Below are positions 30,555 through 41,744 of a DNA stretch of 64,000 bases, piece by piece. Both the position numbers and the translations under genes were made by a program. How positions within the stretch are numbered: position 1 is the stretch's first letter; each line of letters begins with the position of its first letter. Source of the DNA: Zeaxanthinibacter sp. PT1 (GTDB lineage: Bacteria > Bacteroidota > Bacteroidia > Flavobacteriales > Flavobacteriaceae); assembly GCF_028464225.1 (NCBI RefSeq), contig NZ_JAQPCN010000004.1:1-64000 (forward strand), in the 5' to 3' direction. The notes under the pieces were generated by a model. That model saw only the letters and a program-made list of their open reading frames with translations. It ran no database searches and had not been told where the DNA came from.

Positions 30555-31826
30555 TCAGTGACATTCAAAACACGGAAGCAATTTTGTACCTGCCCGGCTA
30601 TCCTCTGAACCTTTCAGAGGTTCGGTTATAGGCCCCATTTCCTGTATGGCCTCGTAAAAGGATTGGGCTAATTCCTGTAGATGATCCCGCCTGGAGATCA
30701 CTTTCTCAGTGATCTCCTCCTCGTTGAGACGGCGTATATTTTCCGGCCAGCGGGCAAAGCATTCCCGGATGGCTTCATCGGTAAGCTTATTTTGCAAATA
30801 CCTGGCCTCTTGCAGGAAGACTTCCCGCGGAATTTTGAGGAGGAAAAATCGATCGAACTCCATAACAAGCCCGGGCATATGATCAACTTCTTTGTCATGA
30901 GGTTGCACCTTAGGCAGGAAGTGACGATTAGAGATGAGCGTTGGTACTATCCCTCCTAAGTGAAAGAATGCGTTATCCCTGTCCCCGGGCAGGGGAGTGG
31001 CGAAATATCCTTCAGGAGTATCCTGTACCACCCAACCCCATTGTTTGGCATGCCGGTCCCAGTCCCCGATGAGGAGGTCAAATAAACGTGCCCTTACCAG
31101 GATAGGCTTGTTGATCTCTACCGGTCTTGCCGATTCTACCTTGAGTTCCTGAAGATCCTCGGTATCCAGGATTTCTACTACATCTTCCAGTGAAGTCCAA
31201 TTGGTTAGGCCCTCCGTTTCGTACTCCAGCAAGAAAAGCCGGTTCCCGTATTTTTTATTCAACGATCCCAACAAGGGCTGATTTGGCACAAAATAGACCT
31301 TTGGATGGGTGTGTAAAAGCCCGACTTTCTCAGCCAGTGCTGCAACGACGATGGCGGCATAAGGATGCTGCGCACTTACCCCGTCTATGATGATGTTTTT
31401 CAGTCCCAGTTTCTCAGCAATATCCGGGACCAGGGGCTCCGGGTTCTTGGTGATACTTCTCAGGGAATACCTTACCCCGGCCGGAGATTCAATTTCTAAT
31501 GAGTGCGTCTGCTTACCTCCACCTTCTTCGATGATCTTCATGCCCCCCATAAGGGTATCCAGGTATACTATAGGTACGGTAACCGGGCTGGCCCAGGCTT
31601 CACGATACTGCCTGCCCTGCATTAATTTTTTAAGACCATTGGCCTTATAGAGGTCTGTGGCCATCAGTGTGACCGAATCGTATTTCCTGAAGTTGATATT
31701 TTCTGACGGGTCGGGATCCAGGATAACACTCCTGGCTTGCACCTCAGAGGTGCTGTGAAGTGAGAGATATAATAAGCCTATAAATAAAAGAATGACGATC
31801 AGAAGTATCGCAATAATTTTTTTCAT
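30555..31826 (-). CDS. Membrane-anchored kinase-like protein with C-terminal CXXCH
   Basis: 423 residues. An N-terminal hydrophobic segment (3-23) anchors it or acts as an uncleaved signal. The rest resembles a domain found in larger Bacteroidota outer-membrane phosphoesterase proteins. A glycine-rich EGGGKQT loop (101-107) is followed by YSLRSITK, then GDWDRH (254-259), then GDRDNAF (281-287). The order fits an atypical HipA/FAM20-like kinase core, in which the Asp of DRH is catalytic and the Asp of DRDN binds metal. The final six residues are PCFECH, a CXXCH motif like that for covalent heme. Function is unknown; the kinase reading is inference. Confidence 0.6.
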   Translation of the reverse strand: MKKIIAILLIVILLFIGLLYLSLHSTSEVQARSVILDPDPSENINFRKYDSVTLMATDLYKANGLKKLMQGRQYREAWASPVTVPIVYLDTLMGGMKIIEEGGGKQTHSLEIESPAGVRYSLRSITKNPEPLVPDIAEKLGLKNIIIDGVSAQHPYAAIVVAALAEKVGLLHTHPKVYFVPNQPLLGSLNKKYGNRLFLLEYETEGLTNWTSLEDVVEILDTEDLQELKVESARPVEINKPILVRARLFDLLIGDWDRHAKQWGWVVQDTPEGYFATPLPGDRDNAFFHLGGIVPTLISNRHFLPKVQPHDKEVDHMPGLVMEFDRFFLLKIPREVFLQEARYLQNKLTDEAIRECFARWPENIRRLNEEEITEKVISRRDHLQELAQSFYEAIQEMGPITEPLKGSEDSRAGTKLLPCFECH

Positions 31827-31950
31827 GCCCCCGGTATATTTTGTACCATACTACTGTAAATACTCTAGAAATACGGGTGTTATCCCAAATTGTTTTGGTC
31901 TTGATAGTTAATCCGTGAGTATTATGCTTTCTTACTTAAGGATCACTGAA

Positions 31951-33396
31951 CTAATCATTCCTTGGCGGAACCGGTGGTGGGCCGTCGGGCAACATGGCCT
32001 TCCAGGTCTCATCGCCTTTTCTCCTGATAAATTCTTCACGGATCTCTTTTCTGATCGTATCGTTTTCAAAAAGGTCTACCATAGTCAGTCCTAAAGTTTT
32101 TGCGGCAAAGAGCATACCTTTGTGACCGATACTCATGCCCCCGCAGGCAACGACAACCCAGGAATGCCAGGGAGATTTATAGGGTGCTGTGGTGGCCAAC
32201 AGGGATATCTCCGGAACAATGTAACTGACATCTCCTACATCTGTTGAACCTCCTCCCTGTAATGCTTTATGGGGTTCAAGATCCTGGATTTCTCCGTCCA
32301 AGCCTTGTGGTTCAATTCCATAGGACTTCATGATAGCGTCCGCAAATGCCTGTTCATCGGCCGTATAAGTGATAGGACCTACCAATTCCATATTTTCCTG
32401 TAATACTTTGGCTCCCCTTTCATTCACCAATATCTCGTAAAGGCCATTGTTGAGGCTAACTTCTTGTTGTACCCCGGCCATCAGTGCCGCTCCTTTGGCA
32501 ATCTCCTTCATCCGTTCCGACACTTCTGCAACCCCACTTCTTTTAGAATCCCTGATCCAGATCCATACGGCTGCTTCTTCCGGGATTACGTTGGGCACGT
32601 CTCCGGCTTTAGTATATACGTAATGCATGCGTACAGTAGGCTTTACGTGTTCCCTGAGCGCATTGATTCCTGTTGTAAAAAATTCTGCAGCGTCTAGGGC
32701 ACTTCTCCCATTCCAGGGATCTGCAGCGGCATGGGCACTTTTACCTTTAAAGGTGACCGTATAATCAGTTACGGCCTGTGAGCTTTGTGTCCCTGCTTTA
32801 TTCTGGTAATCGGGGTGCCAGTCCAGGCAGACATCGAGATCGTCAAAGAGCCCTGCCCTGGCCATATAAACTTTACCCGCCAGGTCTTCCTCCGCCGGGG
32901 TTCCATAAAACCGGATAGTGCCTTGTAATTCCCCCTTTGCTATCAGTTCCTTGATGGCAATTGCAGCTCCAAGGCTACCAGGGCCAAACATATTATGGCC
33001 ACAGCCATGACCTGCGGCACCCGGTTTTAGCGGAGCTTTTTCTGGTGATGCCTGCTGGGATAAACCGGGTAAGGCATCATACTCGCCCATGATCCCTATA
33101 ACCGGGGTTCCACTACCGTAAGAAGCGATAAATGCAGTAGGTATTTCCGCTACACCTCTTTGTACCTTAAAGCCATTTTTTTCGGCATAATCGGCCAGGA
33201 TCTCTGCGGAGCGGTATTCTTTCATTGCCGTTTCAGCATAATTCCAGATAGAATCACTCATCCGGATCAAGGATTGTTGGTGGTATTCAACGGATTTCAG
33301 AATGGCCTGCTTCTTGGGTGAAATGTTTCCCTGGGACATAACAGCAGTGGTGCAAAGACAGAAAAAGACGATGATTTTTGGTATAGGTAAGTTCAT
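31951..33396 (-). CDS. Secreted M20D family amidohydrolase (AbgB-like)
   Basis: 481 residues with a signal peptide (1-21). GIMGEYDALPG (about 99-109) and GHGCGHNMFG (about 129-138) are M20 metal-site motifs, followed by GTPAEEDLAGK with the catalytic Glu pair and DWHPDY. The insert domain (about 205-320) is the dimerisation lid. The family cleaves aminoacylated aromatic or p-aminobenzoyl-glutamate amides. Export is unusual for AbgB and suggests use of an external substrate. It follows the kinase-histidine-protein operon by 73 bases. Confidence 0.85.
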   Translation of the reverse strand: MNLPIPKIIVFFCLCTTAVMSQGNISPKKQAILKSVEYHQQSLIRMSDSIWNYAETAMKEYRSAEILADYAEKNGFKVQRGVAEIPTAFIASYGSGTPVIGIMGEYDALPGLSQQASPEKAPLKPGAAGHGCGHNMFGPGSLGAAIAIKELIAKGELQGTIRFYGTPAEEDLAGKVYMARAGLFDDLDVCLDWHPDYQNKAGTQSSQAVTDYTVTFKGKSAHAAADPWNGRSALDAAEFFTTGINALREHVKPTVRMHYVYTKAGDVPNVIPEEAAVWIWIRDSKRSGVAEVSERMKEIAKGAALMAGVQQEVSLNNGLYEILVNERGAKVLQENMELVGPITYTADEQAFADAIMKSYGIEPQGLDGEIQDLEPHKALQGGGSTDVGDVSYIVPEISLLATTAPYKSPWHSWVVVACGGMSIGHKGMLFAAKTLGLTMVDLFENDTIRKEIREEFIRRKGDETWKAMLPDGPPPVPPRND

Positions 33397-33469
33397 AGGA
33401 ATAGAATTGTCCTATCAATGTTACGAATTTTTTGCCACTGAAACGCAAAGGAGTAATGCGGGGGGCAGG

Positions 33470-34756
33470 CTAATTTGTGGGGAACCAAATGCTGAAGGTA
33501 GCACCTTCACCTAGTTTTCCATCTGCATGGACCAATCCATTATGGTTTTCCACGATTTTCTTAACAATAGCCAGGCCAATACCAGTGCCTTCATACTCGT
33601 CCCTGCTGTGAAGTCGCTGAAATAATTCGAATAGCTTATCGCTGTATTTCTGTGAAAAACCGACCCCGTTATCAGAAATGCGAAGGTTGCAATAGTAATC
33701 TTTCTTAGGGAGTTTTCTTAAACCATCCGGTCGCTGAGAATGTATCTCACTCTGAATCCGGATATGGGGTGTTCTTCCGGGAACCGTGAACTTTAAGGAA
33801 TTGCTGACGAGGTTCAGTATTAACTGCTTGAATTGGAATGGAATTACTTCGGCTTCGCAGAGCTCACCAACTTCGATCACTGCCCCCGCTCTCTCGATCT
33901 TCATGTGCAGATCGTTCAGCACCTCGTTGACAATGTCGTTCATGTCTGTCTTCTCGTAAACCTTGTTTTCATTAGAAGCCCGGGAATAATCCAGAAGGTC
34001 TTCAATTAAGTTCTGCATCCTTGTAGCGGCCTGCGTAATCCGTTGAAAGTAATCTTCACCCCGGCTACTCAGGTTAGATGTTTCTTTATCTTCTATTCGA
34101 GATATGAAGGTCTGAATCTTTCTAAGGGGTTCTTGTAGGTCATGGGAGGCAATATATACAAAGGAAGCCAGTTCCTTGTTGGTCGTGCTGAGTTCCTTGT
34201 TTTTTAATTTCAGGTTCTGTTGGTACTGCAGGATTAGTTTTTCCTTATTTTTAAAATCGGTGAGATCGGTCATGATAATCCCTATGGTCGATAATTTAGG
34301 TTGCAGTGATGTCATGGAAACCAGCGCTGGTCTTCGCTCTTGGCCGACTCGTAAAAACACTTCACCCTTGGCCTGTCCCCTAAGTGCTTTTTTAAACATA
34401 TGCCTGAACTTTTCACGTGAATCAGGATGTATAAAATCGAACAGTGAATTACCTACGATCTTATCTCTACTCAGGTTAAATACTTTTAACAGGTGAGGGT
34501 TAGCAAAAGAAATAATTCCGTCTTCAGTAACATTTAAAGCACCTTCTCCTATCTCTTCTACGAGTACACGGAAGGCGTGATCCCCGGATTGCAGGGTGAA
34601 AATCTCGGACTCTTCATTGGTTTTATTATTAATCGCAAAAGCATCGACTTCTCCAGATTTGATCGCATTTACCAATTGGTTAGACTCCTCCAACCGAATT
34701 TCTAATTCCTGGATGCGTTCTATCAATCGATCTCTTGAGGTATTTTTTTTCGTCAT
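33470..34756 (-). CDS. Soluble PAS sensor histidine kinase of the Kai operon
   Basis: 428 residues and no membrane segment. A short coiled coil (about 8-33) and the phrase SGEVDAFAIN lead into a PAS domain (about 60-165, VTEDGIISFANPHLLKVFN), a second short coiled coil and HisKA with IASHDLQEPLRK (His205). HATPase_c follows (about 270-425) with LILNLVSNSLKF, DNGVGFS and GTGIGLAIVKKI. I have seen the N-terminal phrase around SGEVDA in kinases encoded beside KaiC homologues, so it is a likely output or input kinase of this KaiBC set. Its ATG overlaps the stop of the 82-residue frame as ATGA. No response regulator is adjacent. Confidence 0.88.
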   Translation of the reverse strand: MTKKNTSRDRLIERIQELEIRLEESNQLVNAIKSGEVDAFAINNKTNEESEIFTLQSGDHAFRVLVEEIGEGALNVTEDGIISFANPHLLKVFNLSRDKIVGNSLFDFIHPDSREKFRHMFKKALRGQAKGEVFLRVGQERRPALVSMTSLQPKLSTIGIIMTDLTDFKNKEKLILQYQQNLKLKNKELSTTNKELASFVYIASHDLQEPLRKIQTFISRIEDKETSNLSSRGEDYFQRITQAATRMQNLIEDLLDYSRASNENKVYEKTDMNDIVNEVLNDLHMKIERAGAVIEVGELCEAEVIPFQFKQLILNLVSNSLKFTVPGRTPHIRIQSEIHSQRPDGLRKLPKKDYYCNLRISDNGVGFSQKYSDKLFELFQRLHSRDEYEGTGIGLAIVKKIVENHNGLVHADGKLGEGATFSIWFPTN

Positions 34757-35001
34757 TTAATATAGAATGAAGAAATTTTTAAAATTACAACTGCACTTGG
34801 TCTTGGAGTATTCGGTCTGAACTGCTGCCGGAGGGGAAAGAGGAAATCGTATAAAAAGGAAAGTAAGTCGTTTTTAATCGAGGGTACTTGTGGTGAAGTG
34901 AAATTAACCAGGGTAAAGCAACCCCCTTCCGGTGAAATACCGGCACAAAATTGGTGGGCTAAGGCCCGATAAAATCCTTTTATTTTACTCAGTAAGCTCA
35001 T
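34753..35001 (-). CDS. Unrecognised 82-residue protein between KaiB and the kinase
   Basis: The frame overlaps the KaiB stop at one end and the kinase start at the other, both as ATGA, which is the main support for it being real. The sequence is not like KaiB and I recognise no family. It is basic at the start ([17 protein letters not shown]), has two Cys (about residues 19 and 28) and a hydrophobic-aromatic middle ([12 protein letters not shown]), with no convincing signal peptide. It could be a small adaptor of the Kai set, or a spacer frame kept open to couple translation from kaiB to the kinase. Confidence 0.5.
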
Positions 35002-35288
35002 TTATCAAGTGGTCTGATATTGAGACCAACAAGCACTTTCTCCTCATTAGAGAGATCTCCAATAATCTTCCTAAGCGGTTCCGGCACCCTTCTTACCAAA
35101 GTTGGTATGGCAAATATCTGGTCTCCTTCAGCTAATTGTGGATTTTCCAGCAGGTCTATAATTTCAATATTGTAATTGTCGGTAAGGTGCTTTTTACAAT
35201 ATTTAGTAATGTTTTCTAAAGCAATTACCGATTTAGGAGTTTGCCCCGCTATGTAAAGGCGTAATTCCCATTTTTTTTCTTTTTTCAT
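34998..35288 (-). CDS. kaiB: KaiB-like protein
   Basis: 96 residues and a very clear Kai[20 protein letters not shown] at the start, [32 protein letters not shown] in the centre and VLVGLNIRP at the end. In cyanobacteria KaiB changes fold to bind the CI ring of KaiC and competes with the kinase SasA. The residues around the fold-switch region ([12 protein letters not shown]) are conserved. It lies 12 bases after kaiC, and its stop overlaps the 82-residue frame as ATGA. It is the usual length with no extra domain. Confidence 0.93.
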
Positions 35289-35300
35289 GGATTACCTAGA

Positions 35301-36749
35301 TTAATTGGTCGTATCGGTCATTTGTTCTGTTGGTATGGTAAACCGAAACCCGTTATCCGTGATCATAAATTCCTGGGCTTCGGGGTCATGGCCCATTCCC
35401 CGGGCTTTTACAATTCTCATGGTCCGGTGCTGTCTGCGGTTCTTCCGGTTATTATTCAGGTCGATCCAGGCGTCAGACAATGATGAAATGGCCTCCACCG
35501 TCAGGTCTCCTTTATCCTTAAAATTAGATTGTGTCAATGCCGTAAATACCGCATTGATCTGCTTGTTCTTTAAAGTGTCTAACAAACGGATTAGCATTGC
35601 CCGCACTTCGCTACTGCTTCCGATGGTGATAAGACTGCTGATGGGGTCCACGATAACCGTCCTGGGTTTAATTTCCTCCAGGGCATTGTAGAAACGGATC
35701 AGGTGCATTTCCAACCCCTGTAGTGATGGCCTGGATGCTTTAATATGCAGCAGTCCTGAATCCAGATGTGGTTTAAAGTCGATCCCGATACTTTCCATAT
35801 TCCGGACCAGTTGTTCCGGTGATTCTTCAAAGGAAAAAAATAATACCGGTTCCTGCCTGGCTATCGAGGCCATAGCAAAATGAGCTGCCATTATAGTTTT
35901 GGACGTTCCGGCAGATCCGGTGATGAGCGTACTGCTGCCACGGTAAAAACCGCCGTGATCCAGGGAATCATCCAATTGTGTTAACCCGGTAGAAACAATC
36001 TCCCTGGACGAGCCATAGGTGAGATTCAACGATGTTACCGGGATCACTGATATTCCGTCTTCGTTGATAAGAAATGGATATTCGTTGGTACCATGCATGG
36101 AACCCCGGTATTTCACAATGCGCAACCTACGGGTCGCAATCTGGTCTATAACCCTGAAATCGAGTAAAATTACACAGTCAGAGACATATTCTTCCAGCCC
36201 CTGCCTCGTAAAGCTTTGTTTCCCTCGCTCCCCGGTGATCACGGTGGTAACACCCTTCTCTTTAAGCCAGCTGAAAAGCCTCCTCAACTCGGCTCTCAGG
36301 ATGCCATAATTTTCAATCCCGCCAAACAGTGCTTCAACCGTGTCTAATACCACTCTTTTGGCACCTACACTATCAATAGCGTGGTTCAGCCGTATAAAGA
36401 TGGCTTCCAGGTCAAATTCTCCCGTTTCCTCTATCTCTGAGCGTTCTATGCGTACATGATCTACCTTGAGTTTTCCGGATTCCTGTAATTCATCCAGGTC
36501 AAAGCCCAGGGATTTTACATTCATACTCAGATCATTGGCAGTTTCTTCAAAACTCATAAAAACTCCCGGTTCATCATGCTTCAGAATACCGTTAACCAGG
36601 AACTGTACGCCAAAGAGAGTTTTACCGCACCCGGCACCACCACATATCAGTACTGGTCTCCCGGAGGGGAATCCTCCCATCATAATCTCGTCCAGGCCAT
36701 TAATACCTGAGGGAGTTTTGGGGAATTGATCCTTAGAATTTTCAGTCAT
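35301..36749 (-). CDS. kaiC: KaiC-like double ATPase
   Basis: 482 residues from the ATG at 36749; a longer frame to 36842 is not needed. Two RecA-like KaiC domains are present. CI has Walker A GGAGCGKT (37-44) and catalytic Glu pair FEE (68-69). CII has GSAGTSKT (278-285), with Ser where Gly is usual, and FEE (308-309). By alignment the phosphosites Thr426, Ser431 and Thr432 of cyanobacterial KaiC are Thr417, Ser422 and Ser423, so autophosphorylation is possible with a Ser-Ser pair. The chain ends soon after the EFMIT strand, so the KaiA-binding tail is missing, in line with no kaiA here. It is likely a timer or redox-stress switch. Confidence 0.92.
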   Translation of the reverse strand: MTENSKDQFPKTPSGINGLDEIMMGGFPSGRPVLICGGAGCGKTLFGVQFLVNGILKHDEPGVFMSFEETANDLSMNVKSLGFDLDELQESGKLKVDHVRIERSEIEETGEFDLEAIFIRLNHAIDSVGAKRVVLDTVEALFGGIENYGILRAELRRLFSWLKEKGVTTVITGERGKQSFTRQGLEEYVSDCVILLDFRVIDQIATRRLRIVKYRGSMHGTNEYPFLINEDGISVIPVTSLNLTYGSSREIVSTGLTQLDDSLDHGGFYRGSSTLITGSAGTSKTIMAAHFAMASIARQEPVLFFSFEESPEQLVRNMESIGIDFKPHLDSGLLHIKASRPSLQGLEMHLIRFYNALEEIKPRTVIVDPISSLITIGSSSEVRAMLIRLLDTLKNKQINAVFTALTQSNFKDKGDLTVEAISSLSDAWIDLNNNRKNRRQHRTMRIVKARGMGHDPEAQEFMITDNGFRFTIPTEQMTDTTN

Positions 36750-36776
36750 AGGCTGCGTCTTACGCTGTTGGAAGTA

Positions 36777-36784
36777 CAAAAATA
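36777..36784 (-). promoter_or_regulatory. Candidate kaiC operon promoter -7 element
   Basis: TATTTTTG on the minus strand, about 28 bases before the kaiC start, in the 161-base gap after the DUF349 gene. A T-rich stretch stands where TTG would be expected. Confidence 0.45.
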
Positions 36785-36910
36785 AGTACGGAAGTGGAAA
36801 AAAGTTGTTTGGTTTTGAAGGAATTGTTAACCCATAAAGCACTGCCGTGGACTTTTCCTACAAAACAACCGTAGGTGAAATAATAGCGAGGAAAGCAGCT
36901 TACCTATTCC

Positions 36911-39069: not shown

Positions 39070-39804
39070 TCACATATTCCAGATCTGCCAGGCTTTTTCA
39101 GCCTGCAGTTTCAACATTTCATAGCCATTGAGGGTGGTGGCCCCACCTTCTTGTCCGGCAGCCATAAAAGCGGTGATTTCAGGGTTGTAAATCAGGTCAA
39201 ATAAAAGATGATGCTCTCCAATAGCTTCGTAGGGTAACTGGGGCTTACGTTCTACTTCCGGGTAAGTACCCAGGGGGGTGCAATTGACCAATAAGGTGTT
39301 TTCGGAAATGATCTGTTGGTCTAAGTCTGCATAATGGAATTGACCTTCCTTTGGGTTTCGGGAAACATACGTATACGATAAACCTAGCTCATCAAGTACG
39401 TAGGCAACAGCCTTAGAGGCGCCCCCGGTTCCTAAGATCAGTGCATTTTTGTGATTTGATTTTAAATGGGGAAGCAGGGAAGCCCTGAACCCATAAACAT
39501 CCGTATTATAACCCATGGTACCCTTTGCCGTGAATTTAATGGTATTAACGGCCCCGATTTTTTTGGCTTCGGGATCCACTGAGGATAATAAGGGCATTAC
39601 TGCTTCTTTATAGGGGATGGTAACATTGAGACCTTTGACATTACCGGGATTCTTCAGTAAAGTCTCGAGTTCTGAAAGTTCAGGCAAGTCAAAATTAACA
39701 TAGTGATGATCTGTCAGCCCTAAGCGGCTAAACTTCTCCGAGAAATATTTCCTGGAAAATGAATATTCGATGTTTTTTCCGATCAGACCAAATTTATGCA
39801 TCAC
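39070..39804 (-). CDS. aroE: Shikimate dehydrogenase
   Basis: 244 residues (243 from the second Met, 39801). The N-terminal KFGLIGKNIEYSFSRKYF binds shikimate, and LNVTIPYKEAV (about 59-69) holds the catalytic Lys. GAVNTIKF and the Rossmann loop LGTGGASKAV bind NADPH. It makes shikimate in aromatic amino-acid synthesis. Compared with E. coli AroE (272 residues) it is short, as is normal in flavobacteria. Its start overlaps the end of the first DUF368 gene by about 11 bases. Confidence 0.94.
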   Translation of the reverse strand: MMHKFGLIGKNIEYSFSRKYFSEKFSRLGLTDHHYVNFDLPELSELETLLKNPGNVKGLNVTIPYKEAVMPLLSSVDPEAKKIGAVNTIKFTAKGTMGYNTDVYGFRASLLPHLKSNHKNALILGTGGASKAVAYVLDELGLSYTYVSRNPKEGQFHYADLDQQIISENTLLVNCTPLGTYPEVERKPQLPYEAIGEHHLLFDLIYNPEITAFMAAGQEGGATTLNGYEMLKLQAEKAWQIWNM

Positions 39805-40813
39805 CCTTCCTGTTTTTCCCGTACCAGTCTAGTCCGAGGAGGATTAGTACTCCTAAAATAATAAATAGTACAGCCCACCAGGTCTCGGCCAATGCCGGGT
39901 CCGGGAAGTATCTTTCGTAATTTAGTATGATGGGATCACCATTAGAATCGTACATTATGTTCCCTTCTGCACTGGTCTGTATAACCGTTTTTTTCCAGGG
40001 CCATACCACTCCCAGTGAGCCTGTAATGAAACCGATGATGACCGCTGTGGTCACATGCTTATAATGTTTTAAGACATAACCGAGCAGGTGGGAAAGCGAA
40101 ACCAGGCCCGTTGCTGAACCAGCTGTAAATACCGCGAGTATTTGTAGCGTATTTAATCGTTCCCGGTCCTGTACAAAACTAAAATCACCTCCTAGGATTT
40201 CGGCAAAGGTGTCGTACAACGCATTGACCGAATCTACGAGGAGCAATACATAGTTGCCAAGAAGGATAAGAATAAAAGATCCCGACAGTCCGGGTAAAGT
40301 CATCCCTGATACACTGATGATACCACAGAGGAAAATGAAAAAGAGGTTATCGTTCTCTGTAGCCGGATTTAAAAAACTGATAGAGATTCCTGCTAATAAC
40401 CCAATGATCCCGGCCATGACGGTCTTCCTGTTCCAGTGTTCAAAATCTTTTGAAATAAAATATATAGAACCAATGATCATCCCAAAAAATGAAGCCCAGA
40501 CAAACAGTTCTTTGGTCTCCAGGAAATAATCCAGCAATTTGGATACACTGAAATAACTTACCAGCATACCAAAGATGATGAGGCTGAGAAAAGGCCCGTT
40601 GATATACCTGTAGAGACTTTTGAATCTTCCGCCTAATAGCAGTTTAAAAGCCTTGAGGTTGATCTTTTGCAGGGAATAGATGAATTCTTCATAGAAACCT
40701 GCGACAAAAGCTACGATTCCACCGGAGACACCGGGCACCTTGTTGGCAGCACCCATACACATTCCCTTGATGAATAAGAAGAACCGGTCTGATATTGTCC
40801 TGGGTTCGTACAT
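39794..40813 (-). CDS. DUF368 membrane protein (likely polyprenyl-phosphate transporter)
   Basis: 339 residues with eight or more hydrophobic segments. GAANKVPGVSGGIVAFVAGFYEE (about 20-42) is the DUF368 signature, and a related PGLSG phrase recurs near the middle (about 174-178), so the two halves are a likely internal repeat. DUF368 proteins were recently shown in other bacteria to recycle undecaprenyl phosphate across the inner membrane (PopT). Here that would feed peptidoglycan and LPS synthesis. It is paralogous to the next gene upstream, 13 bases away. Confidence 0.9.
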   Translation of the reverse strand: MYEPRTISDRFFLFIKGMCMGAANKVPGVSGGIVAFVAGFYEEFIYSLQKINLKAFKLLLGGRFKSLYRYINGPFLSLIIFGMLVSYFSVSKLLDYFLETKELFVWASFFGMIIGSIYFISKDFEHWNRKTVMAGIIGLLAGISISFLNPATENDNLFFIFLCGIISVSGMTLPGLSGSFILILLGNYVLLLVDSVNALYDTFAEILGGDFSFVQDRERLNTLQILAVFTAGSATGLVSLSHLLGYVLKHYKHVTTAVIIGFITGSLGVVWPWKKTVIQTSAEGNIMYDSNGDPIILNYERYFPDPALAETWWAVLFIILGVLILLGLDWYGKNRKGDA

Positions 40814-40826
40814 AGGGGCAGATGGC

Positions 40827-41744
40827 TTAATTTCGGGCTGCTAATTTTTCGAGTATAAAAATAAGGGAAAAACCAAGGATAGCCAGTGCAATTGCAAAAA
40901 GGAGTTGATTGTCCCCGCTATAGGTCATCGGGGATACATTCTGTTCGGCAACGGCAACGACCTTATCACCGTATACTTTTGTTTGCAGCACCTCTTTCCA
41001 CGGCCATATCTTATTGAGACTGCCTAAAATAAAACCGGTCAACAGTGTAAGCGTTAAATCCTTATAATGGCTGAACATCCATTTAAGGACGCGCGCAAAA
41101 CTGAGTATGCCGAAGATCGCTCCGATCCCAACGGTCATGATCAGGCCCAGTTCTCTTTCGTGAACGGCATCCAGAACTGTCTTATAGGAACCTAAGAGTA
41201 CAAGAATAAATGCGCCTGATATCCCGGGAAGGATCATCGCACAGATAGCCAAAGCCCCCGATAAGAACAAGAATGGCAGGTTCGCCGTATCTTCTATGGG
41301 TGGGAGTGAAGTGATATACCAGGCCAAAGCTGCACCTGCAAGCAGGAAGAGGATCTTGGCCAAGGTCCATTTTTCAATAGCCCTGGCGACGATTATTACA
41401 CTGGCCAGTACTAAGCCAAAGAAGAACGACCATAAGAGTATGGGTTGATTCTCCAACAGCCAGCTGATCATCTTGGCTAAAGAGGCTACACTGATCAGGA
41501 TACCGGAAAAAATGGCTAACAGGAAACCTCCATTTAGTTGGCGCCAGAAAGCCATAAAACCGTTCTTGCGCCAGGTGCGGAACAAAGAGAGGTTAATATT
41601 ATTAATCGAGGTGATAAGTTCTTCGTAGATACCGGAGATAAAGGCAATGGTTCCTCCGGATACTCCGGGTACTACATCGGCGGCCCCCATGGCCATTCCT
41701 TTTAAAATTAATACGGTATACTGAATGCGGTTTCGTTCTCCCAT
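40827..41744 (-). CDS. DUF368 membrane protein (second copy)
   Basis: 305 residues, eight or more hydrophobic segments, with GAADVVPGVSGGTIAFISGIYEELI as its signature and PGISGAF as the inner repeat. It closely resembles the neighbouring copy in length and layout and probably arose by tandem duplication. The two may form a heterodimer or have divided roles. This one opens the pair and has a promoter box just before it. Its N-terminus is basic and short. Confidence 0.9.
   Translation of the reverse strand: MGERNRIQYTVLILKGMAMGAADVVPGVSGGTIAFISGIYEELITSINNINLSLFRTWRKNGFMAFWRQLNGGFLLAIFSGILISVASLAKMISWLLENQPILLWSFFFGLVLASVIIVARAIEKWTLAKILFLLAGAALAWYITSLPPIEDTANLPFLFLSGALAICAMILPGISGAFILVLLGSYKTVLDAVHERELGLIMTVGIGAIFGILSFARVLKWMFSHYKDLTLTLLTGFILGSLNKIWPWKEVLQTKVYGDKVVAVAEQNVSPMTYSGDNQLLFAIALAILGFSLIFILEKLAARN

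Follow-up and report, generated by a model that had tools for sequence, protein, structure and literature searches.

A reduced KaiB-KaiC-histidine kinase cassette in a flavobacterium, with losses in KaiC and an open frame in the slot of a second kaiB

What might a KaiC-KaiB operon that ends in a histidine kinase gene do in a flavobacterium, and what is the small open frame lying within it? We addressed both questions for a locus in the first 64,000 nucleotides (nt) of contig NZ_JAQPCN010000004.1 of Zeaxanthinibacter sp. PT1 (GCF_028464225.1; this whole stretch is hereafter the window). The genome is closely related to Zeaxanthinibacter enoshimensis; by KaiC identity, the nearest named genomes are the metagenome-assembled genome SS_bin_70 (97%) and Z. 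enoshimensis DSM 18435 (91%). A preliminary description of this DNA had recognized kaiC, kaiB, an 82-residue unknown and a PAS histidine kinase gene, with a 12-base gap between kaiC and kaiB and 4-base ATGA overlaps at the other two joins, and the joins are as described (Table 1). The kind of operon is already known, the order kaiC-kaiB-second kaiB-histidine kinase being widespread, and the window holds a reduced variant of it: sequence comparison shows that it has lost the P-loop glycine of the second KaiC ATPase domain (CII), the second KaiB, and the coiled-coil tail together with the greater part of the A-loop region.

KaiC is a double-domain protein, as had been proposed (PF06745 matched over two stretches), and an NCBIfam search gave 645.7 bits against NF006799 (cut-off 408) and 318.7 bits, below the cut-off of 546.25, against the circ_KaiC model TIGR02655. 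Its best match in the PDB is Rhodobacter sphaeroides KaiC (8DB3, E 5.7e-158). The catalytic glutamate pairs lie in FEE motifs that begin with residues 67 and 307, and T417, S422 and S423 occupy the phosphosite positions, with S422/S423 as the Ser-Ser pair, again in agreement with the preliminary description. Its claim that both Walker A sites are present holds for the first domain (CI), which has a canonical GGAGCGKT from residue 37, but only in part for CII, whose loop reads GSAGTSKT from residue 278, with S283 replacing the glycine that precedes the lysine. Glycine stands at this CII position in 77/77 KaiC proteins outside one clade, while all 18 proteins inside that clade have serine (6) or alanine (12). 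Our data do not support CII as an ordinary, intact kinase ring.

A tree of 93 KaiC rows, built by a quick method with the P-loop column removed and eight rows dropped as partial, gapped or duplicate, placed 18/18 Ala/Ser proteins in one clade (Shimodaira-Hasegawa-like approximate likelihood ratio test, SH-aLRT, 96); the other 75 rows keep glycine. Within this clade a short C-terminal tail arose once, its 7 rows grouping together (SH-aLRT 100). The window KaiC, one of these short-tail proteins, has 10 residues beyond the last conserved motif, compared with 72-111 in long-tail rows. The KaiA-binding tail is absent, as had been noted, and so is the coiled-coil tail of the protein's own KaiC2 group, a point missing from the earlier account. 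A C-terminal extension of ~50 residues is predominant, though not universal, in the kaiC2 subgroup (PMC10076222). According to the range of the PDB-match alignment, the window KaiC ends near residue 491 of S. elongatus KaiC. Since we take the A-loop to be S. elongatus residues 488-497, most of it would be missing too. Removing the A-loop from S. elongatus KaiC is reported to lead to hyperphosphorylation (PMC10076222).

Short tails also occur beside a normal P-loop, in three Chloroploca, in loci L047 and L054, and in L056 (which lies outside the tree), and tail loss and P-loop glycine loss are therefore not strictly tied. The Chloroploca loci (L055, L057 and L059), which have a short-tail KaiC with a normal P-loop, a single KaiB and no match to the kinase, represent a separate reduced form. 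For the clade of the window, parsimony on the tree suggests that the losses ran from glycine to alanine, through loss of the tail and the change of alanine to serine, to loss of the second KaiB.

One explanation, which we regard as rather doubtful, is that CII is no longer a kinase at all, such that CI would form the ATPase hexamer, CII would sense nucleotides or be purely structural, and KaiB would signal without a phosphorylation cycle. The lost P-loop glycine and the lost tail are what such a protein might display, as is the excess of altered near-invariant positions in CII of the short-tail clade (13/62, a count that omits four further changed positions at the ragged C terminus) over CI (4/106; Fisher P 0.0008). 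Retention of the CII FEE motif, the Walker B aspartate and S422/S423 in the clade argues the other way, as does purifying selection on CII alone, for which nonsynonymous (dN) and synonymous (dS) divergence from the window's closest relative are 0.015 and 0.332. Moreover, alanine or serine precedes the P-loop lysine in active MCM and MoxR ATPases, and this too tells against a dead domain; a literature text search for four MCM P-loop motif strings returned no match. In the same comparison of window and close relative, dN/dS is ~0.04 for all of kaiC and ~0.03 for the kinase gene, and differences at first, second and third codon positions number 13, 2 and 99 in kaiC, 3, 0 and 15 in kaiB, and 11, 4 and 80 in the kinase gene. 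These substitution patterns mark the products of all three genes as real proteins under strong purifying selection.

The KaiB-KaiC hourglass of R. sphaeroides (PDB 8DBA, 8DB3 and 8FWJ) is likewise of KaiC2 type, with a Ser-Ser pair and KaiB and without KaiA, and this species provides the best PDB match for both KaiC and KaiB of the window. R. sphaeroides KaiC carries a coiled-coil tail and forms a dodecamer (PMC10076222), whereas the window KaiC is coil-free and has SKT in its CII P-loop. When the coil is removed, R. sphaeroides KaiC is a hexamer with wild-type-like phosphorylation and little dephosphorylation (PMC10076222); by analogy, the window KaiC carries this truncation naturally. In addition, the ATP/ADP ratio resets the R. 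sphaeroides KaiBC timer (PMC10076222). The parallel supports the earlier proposal of a KaiBC system that lacks KaiA and is linked to a histidine kinase, with an hourglass or energy-state switch as its likeliest function. The genome gave no match to the KaiA family PF07688 (among 14 controls, Synechococcus elongatus alone matched), which makes a self-sustained clock unlikely. Although Kai homologs and the serine pair are present, in keeping with a circadian oscillator, the missing KaiA, the missing coil and the altered CII P-loop render such an oscillator very improbable here, particularly as the R. sphaeroides pair, although it has the tail, is itself termed an hourglass timer (PMC10076222).

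KaiB itself was correctly recognized (PF07689, 91.4 bits, cut-off 27) and has the conserved GDLS region, though it falls below the cut-offs of two NCBIfam KaiB equivalog models (96.2 versus 110 and 90.3 versus 145.3 bits). The number of KaiB proteins also sets the locus apart. We compared 89 distinct kaiC loci in which CII is complete and the sequence extends 900 nt or more downstream of the gene: 70 encode two KaiB, each of them with a kinase match as well; ten encode one KaiB (five with a kinase, including the window and two relatives) and nine none, with 9 of these 19 loci holding only ~1.2 kb downstream. Cassettes with a second kaiB, found in Bacteroidota, Pseudomonadota and others, share the gene order and the kinase with the window, which has an 82-codon frame where they have the second kaiB. 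This second KaiB has a consensus of its own. The three kai-bearing genomes of the genus (G000, which holds the window, G001 and G003, the last 68% complete) have one KaiB copy each, compared with two in the nearest outgroup, G045 (KaiC identity 69%), whose operon reads kaiC-kaiB-kaiB2-kinase. Within the short-tail clade, the second KaiB is present in L010 and L062, while the contig of L009 ends too early to tell. Conservation of the four-gene order, a test put forward in the preliminary description, thus gave a divided answer: the genes stay together in three of four genus genomes, but the fourth (G002) has no KaiC, and the third gene is a second kaiB in the nearest outgroup and in the 70 loci above. 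The window KaiB also matched Lpp1115 (PDB 4KUN), a KaiB-like protein of the Legionella kai operon, and the window is without a second KaiB of that kind; a literature search for lpp1115 with KaiC returned no match.

The cassette is patchily distributed. KaiC matches at E 1e-100 or better occurred in 5/397 Flavobacteriaceae sampled and in 40/395 genomes sampled from the phylum, and a kinase search at E 1e-100 in 196 genomes of the order matched only G000 and G001. One group of organisms, all Bacteroidetes, encodes only KaiB2/KaiC2-like proteins, according to the available part of one study (PMC5520375). Similarly, the available part of a Ramlibacter genome paper describes a histidine kinase or GGDEF/EAL gene directly downstream of kaiC/kaiB outside cyanobacteria, and does not mention a short-tail KaiC with an altered P-loop in that context (PMC3164672). 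In the part of the listing examined for literature on KaiC and Flavobacteri, no title or abstract opening concerned this system. Some 2 kb downstream of the kai operon in G045 (L084, 15916-17153) lies a pair of genes that by eye resemble transposase genes and that may bear on the patchy spread of the operon.

The 82-codon frame occupies the slot of the second kaiB, and we consider two questions about it in turn: whether it encodes a protein, and whether its openness is kept. The frame is indeed open, as described, and has the same length in two relatives; we found no support for a functional protein. Differences from the close relative are spread evenly over codon positions (6, 13 and 10), with dN 0.116 and dS 0.172, and against Z. 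enoshimensis the frame shows 51% DNA and 23% protein identity (differences 42, 39 and 40), while its neighbours are 91-97% identical as proteins. It had no Pfam or NCBIfam match, and its AlphaFold model, built from three sequences only, had a mean predicted local distance difference test score (pLDDT) of 43.9 and no confident fold. Given the even codon-position differences and the low-pLDDT model, nothing shows selection on its amino acids. A small, rapidly evolving protein that serves as a partner to KaiB/KaiC or to the kinase could still be accommodated, as the frame, its length, both ATGA joins and its place in the operon are constant in three genomes, but the substitution rates, the contrast with its neighbours and the lack of family or fold make this improbable. 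The role in reading the state of KaiC that had been suggested for an 82-residue protein is accordingly not supported, and the frame probably contributes no protein part to the system. Two other accounts of the slot were rejected: in situ decay of a second KaiB (when the six frames of the slot were searched with unfiltered profiles in three genomes, the best E was 1.6, which is noise) and an RNA element (no unusual fold, z +1.13).

Turning to openness, the distance from the start of the frame to the kinase start is 245 nt in all three kai-bearing genomes of the genus. Ungapped identity to Z. enoshimensis is 0.51 in register and at most 0.36 when the sequences are slid by one to six bases; it is spread over the whole frame (0.37 to 0.63 in six consecutive parts), and the maximum in 2000 shuffles was 36%, compared with 51% observed. 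In neutral simulations started from the window sequence and run to the same number of differences, the frame remained stop-free at the divergence of Z. enoshimensis in 2.5% of 600 runs. We also compared the spacers of 120-500 nt that separate orthologous neighbours in two genomes, 51 in all: seven had an aligned identity of 0.67 or less, of which six changed length and only the 82-codon slot did not.

Several observations weigh against a kept frame. Simulation to the close relative was stop-free in 29% of 2000 runs; nine of the 51 spacers kept their length (the other eight all at least 0.80 identical); five of the 51, the slot included, have a sense-strand frame open throughout in both genomes; and a global aligner placed 10 gap openings in the slot. 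The argument draws on three genomes, two of them close, and the simulation and spacer counts were made post hoc, after the frame had been noticed. A plain spacer left by loss of the second kaiB and open by chance would agree with these counts and with the neutral-looking substitutions, and yet we think it unlikely given the stop-free frequencies in both simulations and a length kept where 6/6 other equally diverged spacers changed. Frame-keeping is thus likely, not proven, from sequence comparison, and the simplest reason for it would be translational coupling, with the frame acting as a spacer and not as a partner protein.

The PAS histidine kinase was also identified correctly, with PAS, HisKA and HATPase domains all over cut-off. 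The motifs ASHDLQEPLRKI (203), NLVSNSLKF (315), ISDNGVGF (360) and GTGIGLAIVKKI (390) presumably represent the H, N, G1 and G2 boxes, respectively. Like SasA, the cyanobacterial KaiC-binding kinase, it would provide a histidine kinase output, but it has a PAS domain and no SasA-type N-terminal KaiB-like domain, as a search accepting E values up to 1 matched no KaiB in it. The window KaiB and KaiB2 proteins weakly match the N-terminal part of NF006800, which we take to be the SasA model: scores were 34.6 and 30.8 bits for the second KaiB of two short-tail relatives, 26.0 for the window KaiB, and 18.7 to 27.4 for three second KaiB proteins elsewhere. As a speculation, the second KaiB may formerly have been the adaptor of the kinase, with KaiB alone in that job here. 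In some relatives (L087, L013 and L025), what by eye appears to be a single receiver domain follows just after the kinase and is a candidate output.

Together, these data lead us to favour, with slightly more confidence than doubt, a derived KaiC2-type KaiBC-histidine kinase cassette that would work as an ATP/ADP-driven, KaiB-gated switch or hourglass, with an altered CII and a coupling frame. KaiC would form a single hexamer, whose CI ring would bind KaiB depending on its nucleotide state, while CII would bind or use ATP in an altered fashion and set the phosphorylation of S422/S423. The ATP/ADP ratio would drive slow switching with no self-sustained rhythm, and free versus KaiB-bound KaiC would alter the activity of the PAS kinase, which would pass the signal to a response regulator whose gene lies elsewhere. 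Ribosomes leaving kaiB would reach the kinase gene by way of the 82-codon frame and restart there, so that kinase levels would follow those of KaiB. Several points count against this scheme: CII, with serine ahead of its P-loop lysine, may be crippled in nucleotide binding, in which case S422/S423 would not cycle; no cognate response regulator was seen by eye beside the operon; and the link between the kinase and the state of KaiC is drawn from gene order. A more tentative and less probable version holds that the CII ring, with its MCM/MoxR-like P-loop and no tail, has left the classical kinase cycle and reports ATP/ADP through KaiB to the PAS kinase, beside a coupling open reading frame, free of sequence demands, that replaces a lost gene.

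Table 1 Features of the kai locus, in window coordinates.
Feature	Position	Strand	Description
kaiC	35301..36749	(-)	482 aa; KaiC2-like, with two KaiC ATPase domains and a short C terminus
kaiB	34998..35288	(-)	96 aa, sole PF07689 match in genome
82-codon open frame	34753..35001	(-)	occupies second-kaiB slot; ATGA overlap at either end
PAS-HisKA-HATPase histidine kinase	33470..34756	(-)	428 aa, Pfam domains
Operon leader	36750..36910	(-)	AAACCAAACAACTTTTT and TTATTTTTGT identical in three species
Block between DUF349 gene and rny	30555..36842	(-)	kai genes and two more genes

The leader element TTATTTTTGT contains TATTTTTG, which presumably represents the Bacteroidota -7 element TAnnTTTG. The operon lies in a block between a DUF349 gene and rny, which we take to be the RNase Y gene. 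In G002 the DUF349 gene directly faces rny, with no kai genes between them (L151, 5844-9543), so the kai block and the two further genes are present or absent as a unit there. The polarity of this difference was sought in 30 DUF349 loci (four from the genus) with ~1.5 kb of flank each, less at contig ends; none of the 26 loci outside the genus had rny, KaiC, the kinase or either of the two other block genes beside the DUF349 gene, and insertion and deletion of the block are therefore indistinguishable. One block member (30555-31826, minus strand) encodes a 423-aa protein that matches no Pfam or NCBIfam family and, by eye, has a hydrophobic stretch at its N terminus. Beyond the block, two adjacent and similar membrane proteins (39794-40813 and 40827-41744, minus strand) form a candidate tandem DUF368 pair by eye. 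For light input, the rhodopsin family PF01036 had no match in G000, nor in any control genome, and is thus uninformative.

The natural series of losses reveals which components of a KaiBC timer a lineage can give up with the remainder still under selection, and the naturally short-tailed KaiC offers a test of the view that dephosphorylation is driven by the coil and phosphorylation by an exposed A-loop. Finally, the 82-codon frame is a caution against calling small operonic frames proteins, as well as a simple system in which translational coupling can be tested.

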